Positions 30,067-40,124 of a stretch of DNA of 64,000 bases are shown piece after piece. The notes beneath the pieces are model-generated. The model saw only the letters and a program-made list of their open reading frames with translations. It did no database searches and was not told the origin of the DNA. This DNA is from a bacterium. GTDB taxonomy: Bacteria > Electryoneota > RPQS01. How positions within the stretch are numbered: position 1 is the stretch's first letter; each line of letters starts with the position of its first letter. The stretch covers positions 248,001 to 312,000 of the forward strand of contig DASXUQ010000010.1 in the NCBI GenBank assembly GCA_036504735.1, read 5' to 3'. A program made the position numbers and the translations under genes.

Positions 30067-30474
30067 ATGCTGCGCATCCCCTCTTCCCTTGAGGAACTTC
30101 CGCACGTTGATGCGGAGGTGGAACGTATTGCCCTTGAAATGGGCTTCAACGACGACGCGCGCGCAGATCTTGGCATCTGCGTGACTGAAGCGGCCGGCAA
30201 TGCGATCACGCACGCTCACCATGAGCGCCCGGATCTGTTTGTGGAAATCCGCTTCGAACAGTTTCCCGATTCGCTGCGCGTGGTGGTGCGGGATCACGGG
30301 CCCGGCTTCGACGTGGAGAAGGTGCCCGATCCGACGCTGCCCGAGAATCTGATGAAGGCGAGCGGGCGGGGGCTGCATGTGATCCGCATGCTGATGGACG
30401 GAGTGGAAGTCAAGCGCCTGCCCGACGGCATGTGCATTGCCATGACCAAGAAACTGAACTCCAAAGCCGCGTGA
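30067..30474 (+). CDS. RsbW-like anti-sigma / serine kinase (HATPase)
   Basis: A 135-residue GHKL ATPase. The N-box is EAAGNAITHAHHE and the G1 box is VRDHGPGFD, with SGRGLHVIRML as G2. It should bind and phosphorylate the STAS protein and sequester a regulator. The start at 30067 has AAGG upstream and sits one base beyond the phosphatase stop; an ATG at 30043 is possible. No sigma-factor gene lies nearby, so the final output target is not visible. Confidence 0.88.
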   Translation: MLRIPSSLEELPHVDAEVERIALEMGFNDDARADLGICVTEAAGNAITHAHHERPDLFVEIRFEQFPDSLRVVVRDHGPGFDVEKVPDPTLPENLMKASGRGLHVIRMLMDGVEVKRLPDGMCIAMTKKLNSKAA

Positions 30475-30959
30475 GAACTGCACTCTATCCGGGCACCTTC
30501 GATCCCATCACCTTCGGGCACATGGATGTGATCCGCCGCGCGGCGGAACTGTTTGACCGCGTGATCGTCACCCTGGCCGTCAATTCGTCGAAGACCACCC
30601 TGTTTACGGTGCAGGAGCGGCGGGCGCAGATTGAAGAGGCGGTGAAGGGAATCGCGCATACCGAAGTGGGCGAATGCCGGGGCTTGCTGGTGGACTATGC
30701 GCATCAGCAGAAGGCGGTGGCGATTGTACGCGGGGTGCGCGCGGTCTCCGATTTCGAATATGAATTTCAGATGGCGCTGACCAACCGCAAACTGGCGGAA
30801 GACATCACGACGGTATTTCTGATGCCGCACGAACGGTACACGTACCTGAACAGTTCCATCGTGCGGGAAGTCGCGCGGCTGGGCGGCCATGTAGAATGTT
30901 TTGTCCCGGGGTTTATCGCCGAAGCGATGGCCCGCAAGTTTTCTGAGGAGAAGCGGTGA
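30471..30959 (+). CDS. coaD: Phosphopantetheine adenylyltransferase
   Basis: It catalyses 4'-phosphopantetheine plus ATP to dephospho-CoA in coenzyme A synthesis. The 162-residue length is typical. The nucleotidyltransferase signature is ALYPGTFDPITFGHMDVI, with the TxGH motif as FGH. RGVRAVSDFEYEFQMALTNRKL and FLMPHERYTYLNSSIVREVA complete the family pattern. The start is a GTG at 30471 that overlaps the previous stop (GTGA), indicating coupling to the partner-switching cassette. Confidence 0.95.
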   Translation: MRTALYPGTFDPITFGHMDVIRRAAELFDRVIVTLAVNSSKTTLFTVQERRAQIEEAVKGIAHTEVGECRGLLVDYAHQQKAVAIVRGVRAVSDFEYEFQMALTNRKLAEDITTVFLMPHERYTYLNSSIVREVARLGGHVECFVPGFIAEAMARKFSEEKR

Positions 30960-31636
30960 TCCCGCGAATCGGACTGGACCTGGAGCCGGGAGTGCAGATC
31001 GCCCGCCTCATCCCGGACCTTGATCTGCTGGACGTGGCGTACGGCGCGGTGCGCGGCGGGGCTCAGATCATTCTGCTGCCCGTTTCTGTCTTTGTGACCT
31101 CCACTACCTACACGCCGGACCTGTTCAACCGGCCCGGGCTGCCGTTGTTTGCGGTGAAGACGGAAGAAGACGATCTGGACCGGGTGCCGGGATTGGGTGT
31201 GGCGCCGGACCGGGTGGTGGTAACGGGAGCGCGCGGCACGACGATTTCGGACGTGAGCCGGGTGGCGGACGTGTCGCAGCGTGTGGTGGGCACGAACCAG
31301 GAGATCGGCGTGCTGGTGGCGCCGGATCCGGTGGCGATTAAGGAACTATCCCGCGCGCGGGTGCAGTGGGCGTATTTCTCCACGGAAAATGTGTACCACG
31401 CGGCCAGCCGCGAAGAGGCGGAAGCGGAAACGGCGCGAATCGCTTCGGCGGCGCTGGCTGCCAACCGGTTGAATTTGCGGGTGGCATTGTACGGGCCGAC
31501 GGGACGGCATTTGCCGCCGAGTCTGGGCGCGATGGCGCACATTGAAGAGATTTATCCGGCTCCCGATCTGTGGGCGATGGCGCTGCGCCTCGGATGGGAA
31601 GGAGCCATTTCCGAATACCGGTTCCTGCTGCGCTGA
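30956..31636 (+). CDS. PdxJ-like TIM-barrel protein lacking the catalytic residues
   Basis: A 226-residue protein aligning end to end with pyridoxine 5'-phosphate synthase (PdxJ, about 240 residues): IGLDLEPGVQIARL at the start, LFAVKTEEDDLDRV, IGVLVAPDPVAIKEL, and EEIYPAPDLWAMALRLGWEGAI at the end. Yet the catalytic blocks are gone. The HLREDRRH stretch is replaced by LLPVSVFVTST, EIHTGCYA by YFSTENVYH, and NAGHGLTYHN by ALYGPTGRHLP. It is probably not a functional PNP synthase. The start is a GTG overlapping the coaD stop (GTGA). Its role is unknown; a moonlighting or new-substrate barrel are options. Confidence 0.7.
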   Translation: MIPRIGLDLEPGVQIARLIPDLDLLDVAYGAVRGGAQIILLPVSVFVTSTTYTPDLFNRPGLPLFAVKTEEDDLDRVPGLGVAPDRVVVTGARGTTISDVSRVADVSQRVVGTNQEIGVLVAPDPVAIKELSRARVQWAYFSTENVYHAASREEAEAETARIASAALAANRLNLRVALYGPTGRHLPPSLGAMAHIEEIYPAPDLWAMALRLGWEGAISEYRFLLR

Positions 31637-31646
31637 ATTTCCTTCT

Positions 31647-33212
31647 ATGAAGCACCGCTACTTTGCGTGGCTCCTCCTGATTGCCGGCATGGTCTGGTGC
31701 CGCGCGGGATTCGTGGAGGATGTCTTTTACAACATCGACGAGGCGGAGTACGCGGTCGCAGGCAGCGCGATGAACCACGGCTGGCTGCCCGGCGTGGATC
31801 TGCTGGGGAGCACAAAGCCGCCGGGCATCTCGGCGCTGTTCAATGTGCTCTTTCATATCTTCGGCCACAATCTTGGCGCGGTGCACGTTGTCCATGTCGT
31901 GATCATGATCGCGACGGGCATGCTGGTGATGGAACTGGCGATAGCGCTGTGGGGGATGGCGGCGGCGATACCGGCGGCGGTATTGTTCTGGATGGTGTCC
32001 AACACGTACCACATTCCCTCGGAGACGCTGGCGCTGAATGTGGAATCGCCCGAAATGCTCTTGGCCGTGGCGGCGCTGCTGCTGGCCTGGATGAAACCGC
32101 AGAAGCGGTGGGCGCTGGTGGTGGCGGGTGCGGCGCTGGGGATGGGCGCGCTGTTCCGGCAAAGCGTGGTGTTTTTCGCGCTGCCCATGGCAGCGGCGAT
32201 CTGGCGGGAACCTTCGCGGCGGCTGTATCGCATGTCGCACGTCGCGGCGGGTTTTGTGCTGGCGTGGCTGCCGTTGCTGGCGATTTATGCCGCGTCGGGA
32301 GCGCTGGGGTGGGCGTGGGATAGCTGGGTGCGGTACCCGATTGCCTATTCGGGCGACGGCGGCATGGAGATGTTCTTCGGCGCGTTGAATGATTACGGCT
32401 CGACCTTTGTAACCGAAGCGACCGTGCCACTGGCGCTGCTGATCGGCGGGATTATTCTTCAGTGGCGGGACCGCTCAACACCACGCGCAAAGTTCCTGTT
32501 GTGGATGACGGCCGCTGCGACGCTGGCGCTGTGTGCAGGGTCGCGCTTCTTCGGGCACTACTGGATACAGATTTTCCCCGTGGCAACGCTGCTGGGCGTG
32601 TCAGTGTGGCTGAAACTGGCGCAGGGCACAAAGGTCATGAAGCGGCTGCTGGGGGCGGCGGTGGTGATCGGCGGGATCATGGCGATACTGCATTTTCCCA
32701 CGTGGCGGAGTTGGGACCCGGATCCGATCCCCGCGGGCTTCGGGCACTACTCGATAGGAGCGGATCAGCTCGAAGTGACCATCGGTCACTTTGCGCGGGC
32801 CAACACCACACAGGATGAGACGATTACAGTGTGGGGATATTGCCCGCAAATCTACTATTATGCGGACCGTCTGCCGGGAACACGCGACTACCTGTGCCAT
32901 TACACCACGGGCTATTCTCCGGGGACCTTCGATCCGACGGCAGAGCGCGCGGTGCGGTCCGAAGGGCATCCCCAGGCCAAGCAGATGTTCCTTGATGATC
33001 TGGAGAAACGCAAGCCGAAATACATCATCGACTTGGTGCAGGTCAGAGCATACGCGTTTCCGTTTTACAATTATTCATTGCGGGACTATCCGGAGCTGGC
33101 ATCCTACGTGCGCCGGAACTATCTTCCCGAAGGCAAAATCGGCGAGGCGCTGATCTATCGCCGCCGCACGGCGAGCGATACGTGGCAGCCTGCCGATCAG
33201 GATGTGAAGTAG
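31647..33212 (+). CDS. GT-C membrane glycosyltransferase (PMT/ArnT-like), paralogue 1
   Basis: A 521-residue polytopic membrane protein. It begins with one membrane helix, then a periplasmic loop with the acidic motif VFYNIDEAEYAVAG (family DE motif for the lipid-linked donor). About 10-12 hydrophobic segments follow, then a soluble tail of ~130 residues (VWGYCPQIYYYADRLPGTRDYLCHY). It should transfer sugar from a polyprenyl-phosphate carrier in the periplasm. The ATG at 31647 aligns with the starts of the two paralogues. It lies 10 bases after the PdxJ-like gene. The acceptor is unknown. Confidence 0.85.
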   Translation: MKHRYFAWLLLIAGMVWCRAGFVEDVFYNIDEAEYAVAGSAMNHGWLPGVDLLGSTKPPGISALFNVLFHIFGHNLGAVHVVHVVIMIATGMLVMELAIALWGMAAAIPAAVLFWMVSNTYHIPSETLALNVESPEMLLAVAALLLAWMKPQKRWALVVAGAALGMGALFRQSVVFFALPMAAAIWREPSRRLYRMSHVAAGFVLAWLPLLAIYAASGALGWAWDSWVRYPIAYSGDGGMEMFFGALNDYGSTFVTEATVPLALLIGGIILQWRDRSTPRAKFLLWMTAAATLALCAGSRFFGHYWIQIFPVATLLGVSVWLKLAQGTKVMKRLLGAAVVIGGIMAILHFPTWRSWDPDPIPAGFGHYSIGADQLEVTIGHFARANTTQDETITVWGYCPQIYYYADRLPGTRDYLCHYTTGYSPGTFDPTAERAVRSEGHPQAKQMFLDDLEKRKPKYIIDLVQVRAYAFPFYNYSLRDYPELASYVRRNYLPEGKIGEALIYRRRTASDTWQPADQDVK

Positions 33213-33257
33213 GGAGGGGATCTTAGTCCGCAGATGATTGCAGCAGTGGACGGTCCC

Positions 33258-34835
33258 ATGAGGCAGCGGTGGATTGCCTGGCTGATACTGGCCGCGGGCA
33301 TGCTGATATGCCGCGCGGCGTTTCTCGAGAGCGTCGTTTACAACATCGACGAAGCGGAATACGGAGTGGCCGCGCGGGGTCTTGACCACGGGCTGCTGCC
33401 GGGCGTGGATTTTCTCGGGTCGAACAAGACTCCGGGGATTGTGTTTTTGTATGGCGCGCTGTTTCATCTCTTCGGCTCATCGTTGATCGTCACGCGGGTG
33501 GCGTACATTCTGATGCTGGTGGTGGAAGGCGGGCTGCTGGTGGAACTGGCTATCCGTCTGTGGGGCGCGACGGCGGCGATTCCGGCGGCGCTGCTGTTCT
33601 GGATGGTTGCCAACAGTTTCGATATTCCGCCCGACATGATTCCGCTGAACACGGAAGGCGCCGCCATGCTGGTGGCGGTGCTGGCGGTGTGGCTGGCCTG
33701 GTGGAGACCGAAGGACATCCGGGCGGTGCTGGGTTCCGGCGCGGCACTGGGACTGTCGGTGCTGTTCCGGCAGAGTTCAGTGTTCTTTATTCTTCCGGTG
33801 TTCAGCGTGCTGATGCTGGCGCCGGGACAACGCGTGAAGCGCAGCGTGATGCTTGCGACGGGAGCGCTGACGGTGTGGGCGCCCGTATTGGCGGTGTATG
33901 GGGCAAAGCACGGGCTGGGGTGGGCGTGGGATAGTTGGGTGCGGTATCCGCTGGAGTATGCGGGCGACACGGGCATCAACGGATTCGCGGCGCGGCTTGC
34001 CTACATGGCCAGTGAATTCGGATTTCAGTTGATGGTTCCTGTAGCCTTGGCGATCTATGGCGCGGTTTTGCTGATTCGCCATGGACGCAAGGAACAGTTT
34101 GTCTTGCTGGGATCGCTGCTGCTGGGTTCGTTTCTGGCGCTGTGTACGGGGTCGCGGTTCTTCGGACATTACTGGGTGCAGATGTATCCCATTGTGGTGC
34201 TGTCGGCTGTTTCAGCATGGCAGTGCATGGCACAGGGAACGAAACGGACGAAGCTGCTATTGACAAGCCTGGCACTGGTGGCGGGACTTGTGGCGCTGAC
34301 GCACTACAACACGTGGCGGACGTGGGACCGTTATGCGCCGCCTCGCGGAATCTCCTTTTTCCGCCTCGGGGTGGAAAATGACGAGGTGAAACTGGGCGCG
34401 TTTGCCAAGGAGCACACGTCACCGGACGAGAAGATTTGCGTCTGGGGCTACTGTCCACAGATTTACTGGTATGCGGAACGGTTGCCTGCCGTGCGGGATT
34501 TCATCTGCCACTATGTGGTGGGATACTCGCCGGGGGTGTCCAATCTGGTCATGGGGCAGAGTGAGCGGCGCCTGGGTCATCCACGGGCCGTGCAGATGTT
34601 CCTTGAAGACCTTGAGCGCAACAGACCGAAGTATATTTTCGATCTGACGCCGGTCAAGCGGTACACGTTTGCGTTCACATACTATCCGATGTCGAGCAGT
34701 CCGCTGGTGGCGGACTATGTGCTGGCGAACTATGTGCCGGACAGCCGGATCGGAGAAGCGGAGATTTACCGCCGCCGGACTCCCGCAGACACGTTGCAGC
34801 CGGGATCATCCGATCTGGAGCCTGCCGAAGAGTAA
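33258..34835 (+). CDS. GT-C membrane glycosyltransferase, paralogue 2
   Basis: A 525-residue paralogue of the flanking genes, with the same layout: VVYNIDEAEYGVAARG motif in the first loop, FLGSNKTPG, a block of membrane helices including LGWAWDSWVRYPLEYAGD, and a C-terminal tail with CVWGYCPQIYWYAERLP. I use the ATG at 33258, which aligns with MKHRYFAW and MKQRWLAW of the neighbours. An ATG at 33234 with AGGGAGGGG 14 bases upstream would add 8 residues. It probably glycosylates an exported polymer or lipid; the specific role is not readable. Confidence 0.85.
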   Translation: MRQRWIAWLILAAGMLICRAAFLESVVYNIDEAEYGVAARGLDHGLLPGVDFLGSNKTPGIVFLYGALFHLFGSSLIVTRVAYILMLVVEGGLLVELAIRLWGATAAIPAALLFWMVANSFDIPPDMIPLNTEGAAMLVAVLAVWLAWWRPKDIRAVLGSGAALGLSVLFRQSSVFFILPVFSVLMLAPGQRVKRSVMLATGALTVWAPVLAVYGAKHGLGWAWDSWVRYPLEYAGDTGINGFAARLAYMASEFGFQLMVPVALAIYGAVLLIRHGRKEQFVLLGSLLLGSFLALCTGSRFFGHYWVQMYPIVVLSAVSAWQCMAQGTKRTKLLLTSLALVAGLVALTHYNTWRTWDRYAPPRGISFFRLGVENDEVKLGAFAKEHTSPDEKICVWGYCPQIYWYAERLPAVRDFICHYVVGYSPGVSNLVMGQSERRLGHPRAVQMFLEDLERNRPKYIFDLTPVKRYTFAFTYYPMSSSPLVADYVLANYVPDSRIGEAEIYRRRTPADTLQPGSSDLEPAEE

Positions 34836-34876
34836 GTGTTCGGATTCGTTGCCGGTCGCCATCTGGGAGGGTTCCC

Positions 34877-36442
34877 GTGAAACAGCGGTGGTTGGCATGG
34901 CCGGTGGTGGCGCTCGGTATGGTGATTTGCCGCGCGGCATTTCTGGAAGATGTTGTCTACAACATCGATGAGACGGAGTACGCGGTGGCGGCGCACGGGC
35001 TGGATCACGGCTGGCTGCCCGGTGTGGATTTGCTGGGCACAACCAAGCCGCCCGGTGCGGCCGTGCTGTACAATGTGCTCTTTCATCTGTTTGGCCCATC
35101 GCTGACGGCGGCGCACGTCACGCAAACGGTGGTGATGATTGCGGCGGGAATTGCCGTGATCGAGTTGGCGATAGCGTTGTGGGGATTGACGGCGGCGCTG
35201 CCTGCGGCCTTCCTGTGGTGGGTGCTGTGCAACAGTTACGGCCTGCCGCCGGAGATGTTCAGCCTGAATGTGGAATCGCCCGGACTGGTTTTGCTGGCGC
35301 CCGCGCTGCTGCTGGTCTGGAAGCGGCCGCAGCGCAGGTGGTCGCTGATTGCGGCGGGAGGTGCCGTGGGGTGCGCGGCGCTTTTCCGGCAGAGTTACGC
35401 GGTGTTTCTGCTGCCGTTGATGGTGGCGGTGTGGGCGATTCGCCCGCAGCGACTGAAGCGCGCGGTGGGGACGTTGGCGGGGTTCGCGCTGCCGTGGGTG
35501 ATAACGGGCATCGTGTACGCGTCATCGGGCGGACTGGCCTGGGCGTGGGATTCGTGGGTGCGGTATCCGCTGACCTATGCCGGGGATGTGGGTGTTTCCG
35601 GGTTTATGCAGGCGCTGCTGATCAACGGAACGGAATTTTTCAAGCAGGCGATTATGCCGCTGTGCCTGGCGGTATTCGGCTGCGGATTGTTGATGCAGAG
35701 GTGGCCGTCGGCGCGGACGAAGTTCGTGGCGGCGACCGTAGTGGCGTCCTTTCTGGCGCTGTGCGCGGGCTCGCGGTTCTGGGGGCATTACTGGCTGCAG
35801 GTGTATCCGGCGCTGGCAGTGACGGGAGTGTATGCGTGGTTATGGCTGAACCGGCGGTTTGCGCGGTATCGCGTGGCGGTGAGCGGCGCGATTGTGATTG
35901 CCGGGCTGATTCTGGGGATGCGGCTGCCGACGTGGCGGACATGGGACTTTACGGCGCCACCGCGCGGCATTTCCTATTCGCGGCTGGACGATGAGCAGAC
36001 CGAGCGGGAGATCGGACGGTTTGCCATGGCGCACACGGCAAGCGATGAGACGATTGTGGTGTGGGGCTATTGTCCGCAAATCTATTATTACGCGCGACGG
36101 CTGCCGGGAGTGCGCGATTATCTTTGCCACTACATTACGGGCTATTCTCCGGGCTCATTCGATCCCTTTACGGAGCGCGCGCCGCGGGAGCAAGGGCATT
36201 CGATGGCGCAGCGGATGTTTATCGAGGATCTGGAGCAGCGGCGGCCCAAGTATGTGTTTGACCTCGTGCTGATAGACGATTACCCGTTTACATTTCTGAA
36301 TTATTCGCTGCGGGATTACCCTGACCTGGCCTCGTACATGCGCGAGACGTACCTGCCGGAGGGCCAGGTGGGGCGGGCGCTGGTATACCGCCGGCGTACG
36401 GCACAGGATACGTGGATTCCCGACGCCAAGGATGTCGAGTAG
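34877..36442 (+). CDS. GT-C membrane glycosyltransferase, paralogue 3
   Basis: A 521-residue third tandem copy. The GTG start at 34877 follows GGGAGGG by 5 bases. The DE motif is VVYNIDETEYAVAAHG, followed by LLGTTKPPG, LAWAWDSWVRYPLTYAGD and the tail VVWGYCPQIYYYARRLPGVRDYLCHY. It resembles paralogue 1 in the C-terminal tail more than paralogue 2 does (DYLCHYITGYSPGSFDP), suggesting 1 and 3 are the closer pair. The three genes sit head-to-tail in about 4.8 kb. Confidence 0.85.
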   Translation: MKQRWLAWPVVALGMVICRAAFLEDVVYNIDETEYAVAAHGLDHGWLPGVDLLGTTKPPGAAVLYNVLFHLFGPSLTAAHVTQTVVMIAAGIAVIELAIALWGLTAALPAAFLWWVLCNSYGLPPEMFSLNVESPGLVLLAPALLLVWKRPQRRWSLIAAGGAVGCAALFRQSYAVFLLPLMVAVWAIRPQRLKRAVGTLAGFALPWVITGIVYASSGGLAWAWDSWVRYPLTYAGDVGVSGFMQALLINGTEFFKQAIMPLCLAVFGCGLLMQRWPSARTKFVAATVVASFLALCAGSRFWGHYWLQVYPALAVTGVYAWLWLNRRFARYRVAVSGAIVIAGLILGMRLPTWRTWDFTAPPRGISYSRLDDEQTEREIGRFAMAHTASDETIVVWGYCPQIYYYARRLPGVRDYLCHYITGYSPGSFDPFTERAPREQGHSMAQRMFIEDLEQRRPKYVFDLVLIDDYPFTFLNYSLRDYPDLASYMRETYLPEGQVGRALVYRRRTAQDTWIPDAKDVE

Positions 36443-36464: not shown

Positions 36465-37007
36465 ATGCCAGAGAGACTGATTTCTAAGTTCCCCGAGATC
36501 GCCGAGATTACCGACCTTGACCTGCGTCAGAAGACCATTGCCGTCTTTCAGGATGCTCTGACCATGGGCGGCTGGAGTGTCGATGACCTCGAGCGGATCC
36601 CGTTCACGCTGCTGATTCCCAATTGCGAGGTCAGCCTTCTGGCGCATACCCGCAGCGTGGTGCAGACGGCGCTGAAGATCGCCGAGGTGCAGGAAGCCTT
36701 CTACAACAAGTATTATCAGCTTGACCGCGACATTCTGCTGACGGGCGCTATCTTGCACGACGTGGGTAAATTGATGGAATACGCCGAGACGGAGAAGGGA
36801 TTTATCAAGAGCCCGGCGGGCAAGATCATGCGCCATCCATTTTCGGGCGCCGCTCTGGCCATGAAGCACGGGTTGCCCGTCGAAGTGCAGCACATCATCG
36901 CCGTCCATGCGCACGAAGGCGACGGCGCGTACCGTTCGCCCGCCGCCGTGATTGTTCACCATTCCGATTTCATTAACTTCGAGCCGCTGCGCGATTTGCT
37001 GAAGTGA
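36465..37007 (+). CDS. HD-domain phosphohydrolase
   Basis: A 180-residue cytosolic metal-dependent phosphohydrolase. The HD signature is visible: LLAHTRSVVQTAL (first His), AILHDVGKLMEYAE (His-Asp) and the later conserved HP/HH (MRHPFSGA, AVHAHEGD, VHHSDFINFE). Such proteins cleave phosphomonoesters or cyclic nucleotides; the substrate cannot be told. The ATG at 36465 has GGAGA 7 bases upstream and gives a better start than 36432, which overlaps the previous gene. It ends beside the tryptophanase. Confidence 0.85.
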   Translation: MPERLISKFPEIAEITDLDLRQKTIAVFQDALTMGGWSVDDLERIPFTLLIPNCEVSLLAHTRSVVQTALKIAEVQEAFYNKYYQLDRDILLTGAILHDVGKLMEYAETEKGFIKSPAGKIMRHPFSGAALAMKHGLPVEVQHIIAVHAHEGDGAYRSPAAVIVHHSDFINFEPLRDLLK

Positions 37008-37072: not shown

Positions 37073-38443
37073 ATGAAATTTCCCGTAGAACCTTTCCGCA
37101 TCAAAACTGTCGAACGTATTCGCCAGACGACGCGCGAAGAGCGCGAAGAGTATTTGAAGAAGGCCGGATTGAATATTTTTGCCGTGCCTTCGGATTCGAT
37201 TTATGTTGACCTGCTGACGGACAGCGGCACGTCCGCGATGAGCGATCAGCAGTGGGGCGGGCTGATGACGGGCGACGAAGCCTACGCCGGCTCCCGCAGT
37301 TTTTACCGCTTCGAAGCGGCGGTAAAGGACATCACCGGATTTCCGAACGTGATTCCCACGCACCAGGGACGCGTGGCCGAGAACCTGCTGTTTTCGACGA
37401 TCTGCAAGCCGGGGAAGATTGTCCCCAGCAACACGCATTTCGACACCACCCATGCCAACGTGACGGCCAACGGCGGCGACGCGCGCAACCTGCCGATCGA
37501 TGCGGCGCTGGTGCCGTCCGAGCAGCATCCCTTCAAGGGAAACATGAACCTTGAGGCTCTGGAAAAGACGCTGGCGGCGGACGCGGCGAACATTCCGATG
37601 GTGGTGATGACCGTCACCAACAATTCGGCGGGCGGACAGCCGGTGTCGATGGAGAATATCCGGGCGACGTCGGTCCTCTGCAAGAAGTACAAGGTGCCCT
37701 TCTTCCTCGACTGTGCGCGCTACGCGGAAAACTGCTGGTTCATCCACGAACGCGAAGCGGGCTACAAGAACAAAAAGGTGATCGACATTGCGCGGGAGAT
37801 GTTCAGCTACGCGGACGGCACGTGGATGTCCTCCAAAAAGGACGCGCTGGTGAATATGGGCGGCTTCATTGCAATGAAGGACTCCGCGCTGACGCAGACG
37901 ATCAAGACCAAGCTGATTCTGATCGAAGGCTTTCCGACCTACGGCGGTCTGGCGGGACGTGACCTTGAAGCCATTGCCATCGGTTTGTACGAAGCGCTGG
38001 ACGAAGAGTATTTGAACTACCGGACGTCGCAGGTGCGGTATCTGGGCGATATGCTCACCGACGGCGGCGTGCCCATCGTGCTGCCCGTGGGCGGGCATGC
38101 GGTGTTCGTGGATGCGGCGAAGTTTTGTCCGCATATTCCGCCGGAACAGTTCCCCGGAGTGTCGCTGACGGTGGCAATGTACCGCGAAGCGGGCATTCGC
38201 GGCGTGGAGATCGGTTCGCTGATGTTCGAGGAGAAGGACAAGGCGACCGGCAAGGCGATTCATCCGCCGCTGGAACTGGTGCGGCTGGCGATCCCGCGCC
38301 GCGTCTATACGATGTCGCACATGCAGTATGTGGGCGAGTCGATTCTGGAGATCTACAAAACGCGGAACACGCTGCGCGGCGTGCGGCTGACCTATGAAGC
38401 TCCGCTGCTGCGGCATTTCACGGCGCGGATGGAGGAGATCTGA
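37073..38443 (+). CDS. tnaA: Tryptophanase (beta-eliminating lyase, PLP-dependent)
   Basis: It would split tryptophan to indole, pyruvate and ammonia. The 456-residue length equals tyrosine phenol-lyase, but the specificity residues are those of tryptophanase. Asp124 (HFDTT) stands where phenol-lyase has Thr124. The block GIRGVEIGS has Ile where phenol-lyase has Arg381. LRHFTARM has His where phenol-lyase has Phe448. The PLP lysine is in SSKKDALVNMGG. I use the ATG at 37073, which starts the family N-terminus (MKFPVEPFRIK); an ATG at 37004 would add 23 odd residues. It runs into the HAD and fbp genes, consistent with growth on amino acids. Confidence 0.9.
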   Translation: MKFPVEPFRIKTVERIRQTTREEREEYLKKAGLNIFAVPSDSIYVDLLTDSGTSAMSDQQWGGLMTGDEAYAGSRSFYRFEAAVKDITGFPNVIPTHQGRVAENLLFSTICKPGKIVPSNTHFDTTHANVTANGGDARNLPIDAALVPSEQHPFKGNMNLEALEKTLAADAANIPMVVMTVTNNSAGGQPVSMENIRATSVLCKKYKVPFFLDCARYAENCWFIHEREAGYKNKKVIDIAREMFSYADGTWMSSKKDALVNMGGFIAMKDSALTQTIKTKLILIEGFPTYGGLAGRDLEAIAIGLYEALDEEYLNYRTSQVRYLGDMLTDGGVPIVLPVGGHAVFVDAAKFCPHIPPEQFPGVSLTVAMYREAGIRGVEIGSLMFEEKDKATGKAIHPPLELVRLAIPRRVYTMSHMQYVGESILEIYKTRNTLRGVRLTYEAPLLRHFTARMEEI

Positions 38444-38448
38444 GCGGC

Positions 38449-39093
38449 GTGGCAGACCACAACATCAAGGCGGTTTTTTTCGATCTGGACGGCACGCTGA
38501 TCGACTCGATGCCCGCGCACGTTACGGCGTGGCAGACGGTGCTGCGGGACGTGGGGATCGAGATGGACGAGCTGTTTATCAAACTTGCCGAAGGCGAGAA
38601 GGCGGACGATACGCTGAAGCGTTTGCGGCAGGACTACGGCCTGGCGGCAACCGACGCCGATTTGCAGGAGATGCTGAAACGCAAGCGCGCGCTGTACTGG
38701 GAGCTGGCGCCGCGCGGCATTATTCCGGAGGCGCGGCGGATGCTGGTGGACCTGTGGGATCAGGGTGTGGAATGTGACATTGTGACGGGATCCATCCGCG
38801 CCAATATGGACGGCGTGGTTCCGGAAGAAGATATCGCGCGGTTCACGCACATTATCACGCCTGAAGAATACACGCATGGAAAACCTGATCCGGACCCGTA
38901 TCTGACCGCCTTGCGGCGCAGCGGTCTGGCGGCGGATCAGTGTATGGTGCTGGAGAATGCGCCGCTGGGAATTCGATCTGCTCGGGCGGCCGGACTGTTT
39001 ACCCTGGCCATCACGACGACGCTGCCTGCGGACTATCTGACTGAAGCCAATGTTGTGATTTCGTCGTATCATGAGCTTCTAAATTATGTGTAG
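38449..39093 (+). CDS. HAD-family phosphatase (beta-phosphoglucomutase-like)
   Basis: A 214-residue HAD hydrolase. Motif I FFDLDGTLIDSMPAHV supplies the Asp nucleophile, with motif II around IVTGSIRANM and motif III/IV in KPDPDPYLTALRR ... CMVLENAPLGIRSARAAG. The helical cap places it near beta-phosphoglucomutases and sugar phosphatases. The start is GTG at 38449, 5 bases after tnaA. Its placement between tnaA and fbp suggests phosphosugar turnover; the substrate is unknown. Confidence 0.88.
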   Translation: MADHNIKAVFFDLDGTLIDSMPAHVTAWQTVLRDVGIEMDELFIKLAEGEKADDTLKRLRQDYGLAATDADLQEMLKRKRALYWELAPRGIIPEARRMLVDLWDQGVECDIVTGSIRANMDGVVPEEDIARFTHIITPEEYTHGKPDPDPYLTALRRSGLAADQCMVLENAPLGIRSARAAGLFTLAITTTLPADYLTEANVVISSYHELLNYV

Positions 39094-39107: not shown

Positions 39108-40124
39108 GTGCAGTTGCCGAACCTCGTCACCATTGAGCGGCACATCCTTGATCAGGAGCGACAGAACCCGGAAGCTACCGGCCAGTTGTCGCGGCTGCTC
39201 TACCAAATTGCGTTTGCGGCCAAAGTGATCAGCCGCAACGTGCGTCGGGCCGGTCTGCTGAACATTCTCGGCGGCACGGGAGACACCAACATTCAGGGCG
39301 AAGCGGTTCAGAAACTGGACGTCATTGCCGAAGAAACCATGAACGCAGCATTCGACCACACCGGAGTGCTCTGCTGCATGGCGTCGGAGGAGTCGGAAGG
39401 ATTGATTCCCATTCCTCCCCAGTTCGACCTGGGCAAGTATACGATGGCCTTCGATCCGCTGGACGGCTCGTCGAATATCGCGGCCAACGTCAACGTGGGC
39501 ACGATCTTCTCGGTGCACCGCAAGGTGACGCCGGGGCGTGAAGGCACAATGGACGACATGCTGCAATGCGGACGCAAGCAGGTGGTGGCGGGGTATGTGA
39601 TGTACGGATCGTCGACGATGATGGTGTATACGACGGGCAAGGGCGTGTACGGGTTTACACTGGAGCCGATGCTCGGCGAATTTTTGCTGTCGCACCCGAA
39701 CATTCAGGTGCCCCAGCACGGAAGCATCTTCAGCGCCAACATGGGCAACTACCACTACTGGAGCGAAGGGGTCCGCAAGTATGTGGATGACATGATGAAG
39801 CCGGATACGGAGCGCCGCCGGCCCTACAGCAACCGTTACATCGGATCGCTGGTGGCGGATGCGCACCGCACGCTGCTGTATGGCGGAATTTTCATGTATC
39901 CCATGGACTACAAGGATCCGAAGAAGCCGAAGGGCAAACTGCGGATGCTGTATGAAGCCTCGCCGATGGCGATGATCTTCGAACAGGCGGGCGGCATGGC
40001 ATCCAACGGGAATGAAAATATTCTCGATGTCCGGCCCGGTGGATTGCACGAACGCACGCCGGTGTATCTCGGCTCACGCGATGAAGTGACGGAAATCGAA
40101 ACCTATATCAAGAATTTCGGGTAA
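39108..40124 (+). CDS. fbp: Fructose-1,6-bisphosphatase, class I
   Basis: It converts fructose-1,6-bisphosphate to fructose-6-phosphate, the committing step of gluconeogenesis. The 338-residue length is typical. The metal site FDPLDGSSNI follows the acidic SEESEG; the late active-site block KLRMLYEASPMAMIFEQAGG is intact. The start is GTG at 39108 with AAAGGAG 7 bases upstream. It is the last gene of the tnaA-HAD-fbp run, followed by a terminator. It supports growth on amino acids, in line with the peptidases upstream. Confidence 0.95.
   Translation: MQLPNLVTIERHILDQERQNPEATGQLSRLLYQIAFAAKVISRNVRRAGLLNILGGTGDTNIQGEAVQKLDVIAEETMNAAFDHTGVLCCMASEESEGLIPIPPQFDLGKYTMAFDPLDGSSNIAANVNVGTIFSVHRKVTPGREGTMDDMLQCGRKQVVAGYVMYGSSTMMVYTTGKGVYGFTLEPMLGEFLLSHPNIQVPQHGSIFSANMGNYHYWSEGVRKYVDDMMKPDTERRRPYSNRYIGSLVADAHRTLLYGGIFMYPMDYKDPKKPKGKLRMLYEASPMAMIFEQAGGMASNGNENILDVRPGGLHERTPVYLGSRDEVTEIETYIKNFG

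Follow-up and report, generated by a model that had tools for sequence, protein, structure and literature searches.

A PdxJ-fold protein without the pyridoxine 5'-phosphate synthase active site, retained in a phylum whose divergent pdxJ genes mostly accompany PdxS and PdxT

The window, i.e., the whole stretch of 64,000 nucleotides analysed here, contains a pdxJ-like gene whose product is predicted to keep the PdxJ barrel and has lost nearly all residues of the pyridoxine 5'-phosphate (PNP) synthase active site. Descent from pdxJ combined with loss of PNP-synthase activity is very probable, and the window protein would be unable to make PNP. With a probability of roughly 55%, we propose that PdxJ lost this activity when synthesis passed to the PdxS/PdxT (PdxST) system, and that the protein has been retained for a role independent of the former active site.

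The open reading frame is intact, starts with GTG and comprises 226 codons (226 aa). The coordinates 30956-31636 given by the first-pass annotation, made from the sequence alone, are correct, and so is the coupling to coaD that it described: the coaD frame (30471-30959) ends in a GTGA, in which the coaD stop overlaps the pdxJ-like start. The gene and its neighbours are arranged as follows.

30067..30474, + strand: RsbW-like anti-sigma kinase, GTGA-coupled to coaD (sequence and neighbour clustering; named by eye)
30471..30959, + strand: coaD, phosphopantetheine adenylyltransferase family (PF01467), overlapping the pdxJ-like start
30956..31636, + strand: pdxJ-like gene for a PdxJ-fold protein (226 aa) lacking the PNP-synthase active site (PF03740, residue table, model and fold search, orthologues)
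31647..36442, + strand: three PMT_2-type membrane glycosyltransferase-like genes (PF13231 for the first, the one tested; clustering)
36465..37007, + strand: HD-domain protein of the conserved downstream block (PF01966)
37073..38443, + strand: tryptophanase-like beta-eliminating lyase, a PLP enzyme (PF01212)
38449..39093, + strand: HAD hydrolase of the conserved downstream block (PF13419)
39108..40124, + strand: fructose-1,6-bisphosphatase (FBPase) of the conserved downstream block (PF00316/PF18913)

As a single sequence, the window protein matches the Pfam family PF03740 over residues 94-223 (29.5 bits, E 5e-7, cut-off 24.5). The best NCBIfam PNP-synthase equivalog model gives it 22.1 bits, below the cut-off of 190. 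Single-sequence searches reach mainly the C-terminal half of the protein, and profiles are needed for a full-length alignment. Such a profile was derived from ten orthologues of the same order as the window genome (families f1 and f2), all of which match PF03740 at E <= 0.1 and which share 31 invariant alignment columns. Alignment of this profile with that of canonical PdxJ spans 218 columns (98.5%, E 3e-15), and the match to the profile of the family f3 set reaches 99.3%; in the PDB every match below E 0.001 is a PdxJ, the best reaching 1.3e-13. A search of IMG/VR with the f1/f2 profile retrieved no relatives. The earlier statement that the protein aligns with PdxJ over its whole length therefore holds at the level of profiles and structures, whereas a single-sequence search covers residues 94-223 only.

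The AlphaFold2 model of the window protein comprises eight strands (pLDDT 82, pTM 0.84); of the seven sequences in the alignment behind it, five were canonical PdxJ. In VIA-align the model scores Z 23.8-26.1 to seven PdxJ entries and 18.1 to the next family. When canonical PdxJ was left out of the alignment, the model, then from two sequences, was poor (pLDDT 54.5), at residues 1-83, yet its top 16 Foldseek matches were PdxJ chains. No family better than PdxJ appears in the Foldseek or VIA match lists, which does not exclude others. Structure prediction, which the first-pass annotation had proposed, thus gives a PdxJ fold with PdxJ crystal structures as best neighbours, and by these models the PdxJ TIM barrel is retained.

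For the active site we considered 20 alignment columns, which we take to be the PdxJ active-site positions in E. coli numbering, and among them the catalytic residues His45, Glu72, Glu153 and His193. The canonical sequences aligned, representing 7 of the 21 canonical genomes in a 61-genome set, match 20/20 positions in 7/7 cases; the window protein matches 1/20 (Thr156). It carries Pro, Lys, Tyr and Gly at His45, Glu72, Glu153 and His193, respectively, and both glycines of the phosphate site are gone (Gly194 to Pro, Gly215 to Ala). The erosion extends to its relatives, with 1-4 matches out of 20 in f1/f2 (n=10), 3-5 in f3 (n=9), 3 in f4 (n=1) and 2-5 in f5 (n=7), although these residues are in part still present in f3, which keeps Gly215 in 9/9, Gly194 in 8/9 and His193 in 7/9 sequences. 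According to passages of PMC10471632, the loop closing the PdxJ active site comprises residues 95-105. This span measures 8 residues instead of 11 in the window protein, and between beta4 and alpha4 a total of 9 alignment columns of canonical PdxJ are missing.

The alignment hence upholds the reported replacement of the HLREDRRH and NAGHGLTYHN blocks, and the position-by-position check that of the catalytic His and Glu and the phosphate-binding residues. The same residues offered from shifted positions, the finding named as a refutation, were seen in neither the sequence nor the profile alignment. That the protein is still a PNP synthase, with its residues supplied from elsewhere, would be in keeping with the predicted intact fold, but all four catalytic residues are gone in the window protein, and the gene content described next makes this reading highly improbable.

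In the window genome (G000, 98% complete) a PF03740 search returns a single match, which is this gene; a search for PdxA (PF04166) gave no match, and contig 5 carries adjacent genes for PdxS and PdxT. The search for a canonical pdxJ, also proposed at the outset, accordingly found none, and a paralogue beside a canonical pdxJ is ruled out. The label "PdxJ paralogue" was wrong: the genome, with adjacent PdxS and PdxT and no PdxA, yielded no PdxJ homologue besides this protein.

The same association is found across the phylum. Among the 39 phylum genomes examined, 8 have a canonical PdxJ, 28 a divergent PdxJ and 3 no PdxJ match, so that the divergent form, whose conservation had been flagged for checking, is present in 28/39. 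The eight canonical genomes (families f6, f7 and f8; 308-329 bits) encode PdxA in 8/8 cases, PdxS in 0/8 and a strong PdxT match in 0/8; the 28 divergent ones (f1-f5; 22-155 bits) encode PdxA in 0/28, PdxS in 24/28 and a strong PdxT match in 26/28. A PNP synthase in these 28 genomes would have no PdxA to feed it. The 61-genome set gives a matching picture, with canonical PdxJ in 21 genomes, PdxA in exactly those 21 and PdxS in 0/21.

Within f1-f5 the pdxJ-like gene is kept in 28 of the 31 genomes. PdxJ matches are absent from G014 and from G005 and G007, both of the same family, and the gene is therefore dispensable in some lineages. All three encode PdxT and two encode PdxS; searching G005 and G007 at E <= 1 with the protein of G010 also gave no match. 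G014 (f4), 100% complete, has PdxT and no match to PdxS, PdxJ or PdxA; its PdxS may sit in an assembly gap. Among the divergent-PdxJ genomes, G001 (97% complete) and G003 (56%) are without both PdxS and PdxT. G001 (locus L050), a genome of the same family, retains the pdxJ-like gene without PdxS, PdxT or PdxA, and may be a vitamin B6 auxotroph or use an unknown route.

Beyond the phylum, PF03740 matches occur in 178 of 252 genomes. Ten divergent PdxJ were picked there (by a score below 220 bits or, for matches listed without bits, an E weaker than 1e-60), two of which are contig-end fragments (G069, G075) and were left out of the following counts and of the tree with 18 canonical sequences described below. 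The eight full-length proteins keep 4-12 of the 20 active-site residues, and PdxS is present in 6/8 of their genomes as compared to 0/13 canonical genomes tested outside the phylum (Fisher 5e-4). G225 and G128 combine a divergent PdxJ with the absence of PdxS, against the rule. Half-eroded proteins are found in G142 (L119; 11/20), G215 (L121; 10/20) and G225 (L122; 12/20), and may represent intermediate or earlier stages of loss.

Gene order was compared by clustering the neighbours in 31 loci, with gene names assigned by eye apart from the Pfam-tested window genes; ORF picking went wrong among overlapping ORFs at G000 (coaD), G001, G006, G013, G015 and G036, and their neighbour lists are thus partly hidden. 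The RsbW-like gene is a conserved upstream neighbour in f1/f2, and a coaD homologue is found in 7/9 of the other f1/f2 loci; in the remaining two, an overlapping ORF call masks it (G001) or it lies past the contig end (G002). The PMT_2-type cluster between the pdxJ-like and HD genes was seen in no family but f1. The three tandem copies in the window are related to each other, most other f1 loci have a single copy, and the arrangement probably reflects local amplification.

In the three f7 loci, the genes ahead of canonical pdxJ are two membrane-protein-like genes, one resembling isocitrate/isopropylmalate dehydrogenase and two for lipoproteins. HD and HAD genes follow it in the two loci with enough downstream sequence, and FBPase also in one. 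The upstream block of f7 is common to most divergent f3-f5 loci, which in f3/f5 contain a polysaccharide-deacetylase-like gene in addition, and the downstream block (HD-HAD-FBPase) is common to f7 canonical loci and f1/f2, the window included. HD homologues follow canonical pdxJ in f6/f7, and they follow the pdxJ-like gene in f1, f2, one f3 locus and, outside the phylum, G082. These shared blocks suggest that canonical and divergent pdxJ occupy one orthologous locus, the basis for f1/f2 being the downstream block alone, and the window gene looks like a descendant of the original pdxJ gene. In f3 loci, e.g., L066, the pdxJ-like gene is flanked on one side by the polysaccharide-deacetylase-like gene and on the other by three genes for lipoproteins that carry GPxGPxG-type motifs (by eye).

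Elements of these neighbourhoods recur outside the phylum. The order PdxJ-like, HD, tryptophanase, HAD of the window block is repeated in G082; near the PdxJ-like gene of G111 lie the two f7 lipoprotein genes, and near that of G091 the deacetylase-like gene. In G215 the gene immediately upstream belongs to the phosphoglucomutase family, and the second gene downstream encodes an NAD(P)H-hydrate dehydratase; G128 carries a mutase-like gene upstream, similar to G215 (by eye).

The tryptophanase-like lyase, conserved in f1/f2 and close to the pdxJ-like gene in G082, could point to a protein that binds a B6 vitamer or a phosphate sugar, for instance PLP or PNP, and aids PLP balance or regulation after the loss of PNP synthesis. 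The occurrence mostly in PdxST genomes and the phosphate-site glycines retained in f3 fit such a binder. Yet the PLP-enzyme neighbour is not seen in f3-f5 loci, and the window protein has lost both glycines, which renders this reading improbable.

Two PdxJ trees do not separate a single origin of the divergent forms from multiple ones. In one of them, a weak branch (63/77) has all 18 canonical sequences (15 of the 21 canonical genomes plus three IMG/VR sequences) on the same side; the branches of G019 and G091 are very long. G008, represented by two contig-end fragments, was left out of alignments and trees, so that 27/28 divergent phylum genomes were aligned. An alanyl-tRNA synthetase tree of 36/39 phylum genomes (without G002, G003 and G021, and with several rows being fragments) plus three others groups f5, f4, f1 and f2. 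The placement of f3, f6 and f7 in this tree is not settled, and therefore one or two switches to PdxST within the phylum are possible.

Selection on the pdxJ-like gene is clearly purifying. In 20 of the 28 f1 pairs (eight genes) dS was computable, and dN/dS ranges from 0.10 to 0.31 (Nei-Gojobori, with synonymous sites near saturation) at dN values of 0.26-0.76. A decaying relic kept by chance might be read from the absence of a match in G005, G007 and G014 and from a pace of change faster than that of neighbouring genes (38-62% identity in f1 vs 59-76% for coaD). However, none of the listed matches contains an inner stop, dN stays in the range given while synonymous sites approach saturation, 28 of 31 f1-f5 genomes keep the gene and the f1/f2 alignment retains its invariant columns; we consider this very unlikely. 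The intact frame, the modelled fold and the dN/dS values agree with the earlier view that fold and gene are intact and under selection.

The distribution of conserved residues bears on what is being maintained. The C-terminal mouth of the barrel, with a conservation of 0.83 vs 0.55 overall in canonical PdxJ, drops to 0.46 vs 0.45 overall in f1/f2 and 0.22 vs 0.30 in f5; the barrel bottom reaches 0.60 in f1/f2 and 0.43 in f5 (P 0.017 and 0.005, windows of four), both zones being defined on the model whose alignment included canonical PdxJ sequences. The raised conservation of the bottom may only reflect barrel stability. In f3 there is no shift from mouth to bottom. Mouth positions that are conserved in f1/f2, and the Gly215 and His193 kept in f3, would be compatible with a new ligand pocket.

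TIM barrels often change function by acquiring new pockets, and the divergent PdxJ could be a new enzyme, in which the retooled barrel perhaps catalyses different reactions in f1/f2, f3 and f5. Family-specific mouth residues fit this idea, namely Asp8, Glu10, Pro42 and Gly180 in f1/f2, where Asp8, Glu10 and Thr143 are each conserved in 9/10 and Gly180 in 10/10 sequences, and Gly 42, Trp 43 and 94 and Gly 202 in f3 (window numbering), as does an f3 mouth conserved slightly above average (0.52 vs 0.47, P 0.19). But a mouth no more conserved than the rest, as in f1/f2 and f5, is unusual for an enzyme, and no substrate-linked gene cluster is common to f1/f2 and f3/f5. A new enzyme is possible, though less probable than loss of catalysis with retention for another role. 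The first-pass annotation had called the protein selected for something else and neofunctionalised; purifying selection and the loss of catalytic residues are in accord with the former, and a neofunctionalised PdxJ is plausible.

The retention reading may be pictured as follows. In an ancestor of this lineage, PdxS/PdxT would have replaced the DXP-dependent route (PdxA/PdxJ) as the source of PLP; PdxA would have been lost and pdxJ would have stayed in place. The retained gene might then have shed its catalytic residues and part of the active-site loop while still being maintained, leaving a non-catalytic TIM barrel, in which the selected part would be the body and the opposite face, for partner binding or oligomer upkeep. 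The most likely candidate for the retained role would be a secondary one that PdxJ already had and for which the active site is not needed.

PdxJ itself (PF03740; PDB 1ho1, 1m5w) resembles the window protein in fold, length and profile, and the window gene apparently occupies the locus of canonical pdxJ in sister families; the window protein differs by the loss of 19/20 active-site residues, a shortened loop and a genome with PdxST and without PdxA. A further parallel is PDX1.2 of plants, a catalytically dead PdxS homologue that works together with active PDX1 paralogues. Both are relatives of vitamin B6 synthases that have been retained after catalysis was lost; yet PDX1.2 has active PDX1 partners, whereas the search of the window genome gave no active PdxJ.

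Passages of PMC9997740 treat pdxJ as the signature gene of the DXP-dependent B6 route and describe ten genomes that appeared to have both routes, with pdxJ and pdxS/pdxT, including Caldithrix abyssi and Fibrobacter succinogenes, in which the authors doubted that the DXP-dependent route is complete. The likeness lies in the presence of genes of both routes; those passages contain no analysis of the PdxJ active site. In the open-licence PMC literature no "PdxJ-like" paper was found, among papers mentioning both PdxJ and pseudoenzymes no title or abstract opening names a dead PdxJ, and none of the papers found on PdxJ, PdxS and PdxA homologues contains the word neofunctionalization, which agrees with the earlier remark that neofunctionalised PdxJ proteins are hardly described.

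Within the phylum, a gene passing PF03740 mostly marks genomes of the other B6 route, with scattered cases outside, and pathway calls from a PF03740 match alone would therefore be wrong. The protein also constitutes a natural experiment, since an enzyme relieved of its reaction and yet retained shows which part selection still maintains. More tentatively, PdxJ may have an ancient second function independent of its active site, the site eroding whenever PdxST replaces the DXP route, in several phyla independently. If this is true, the ordinary PdxJ of model bacteria would carry an undiscovered moonlighting role.
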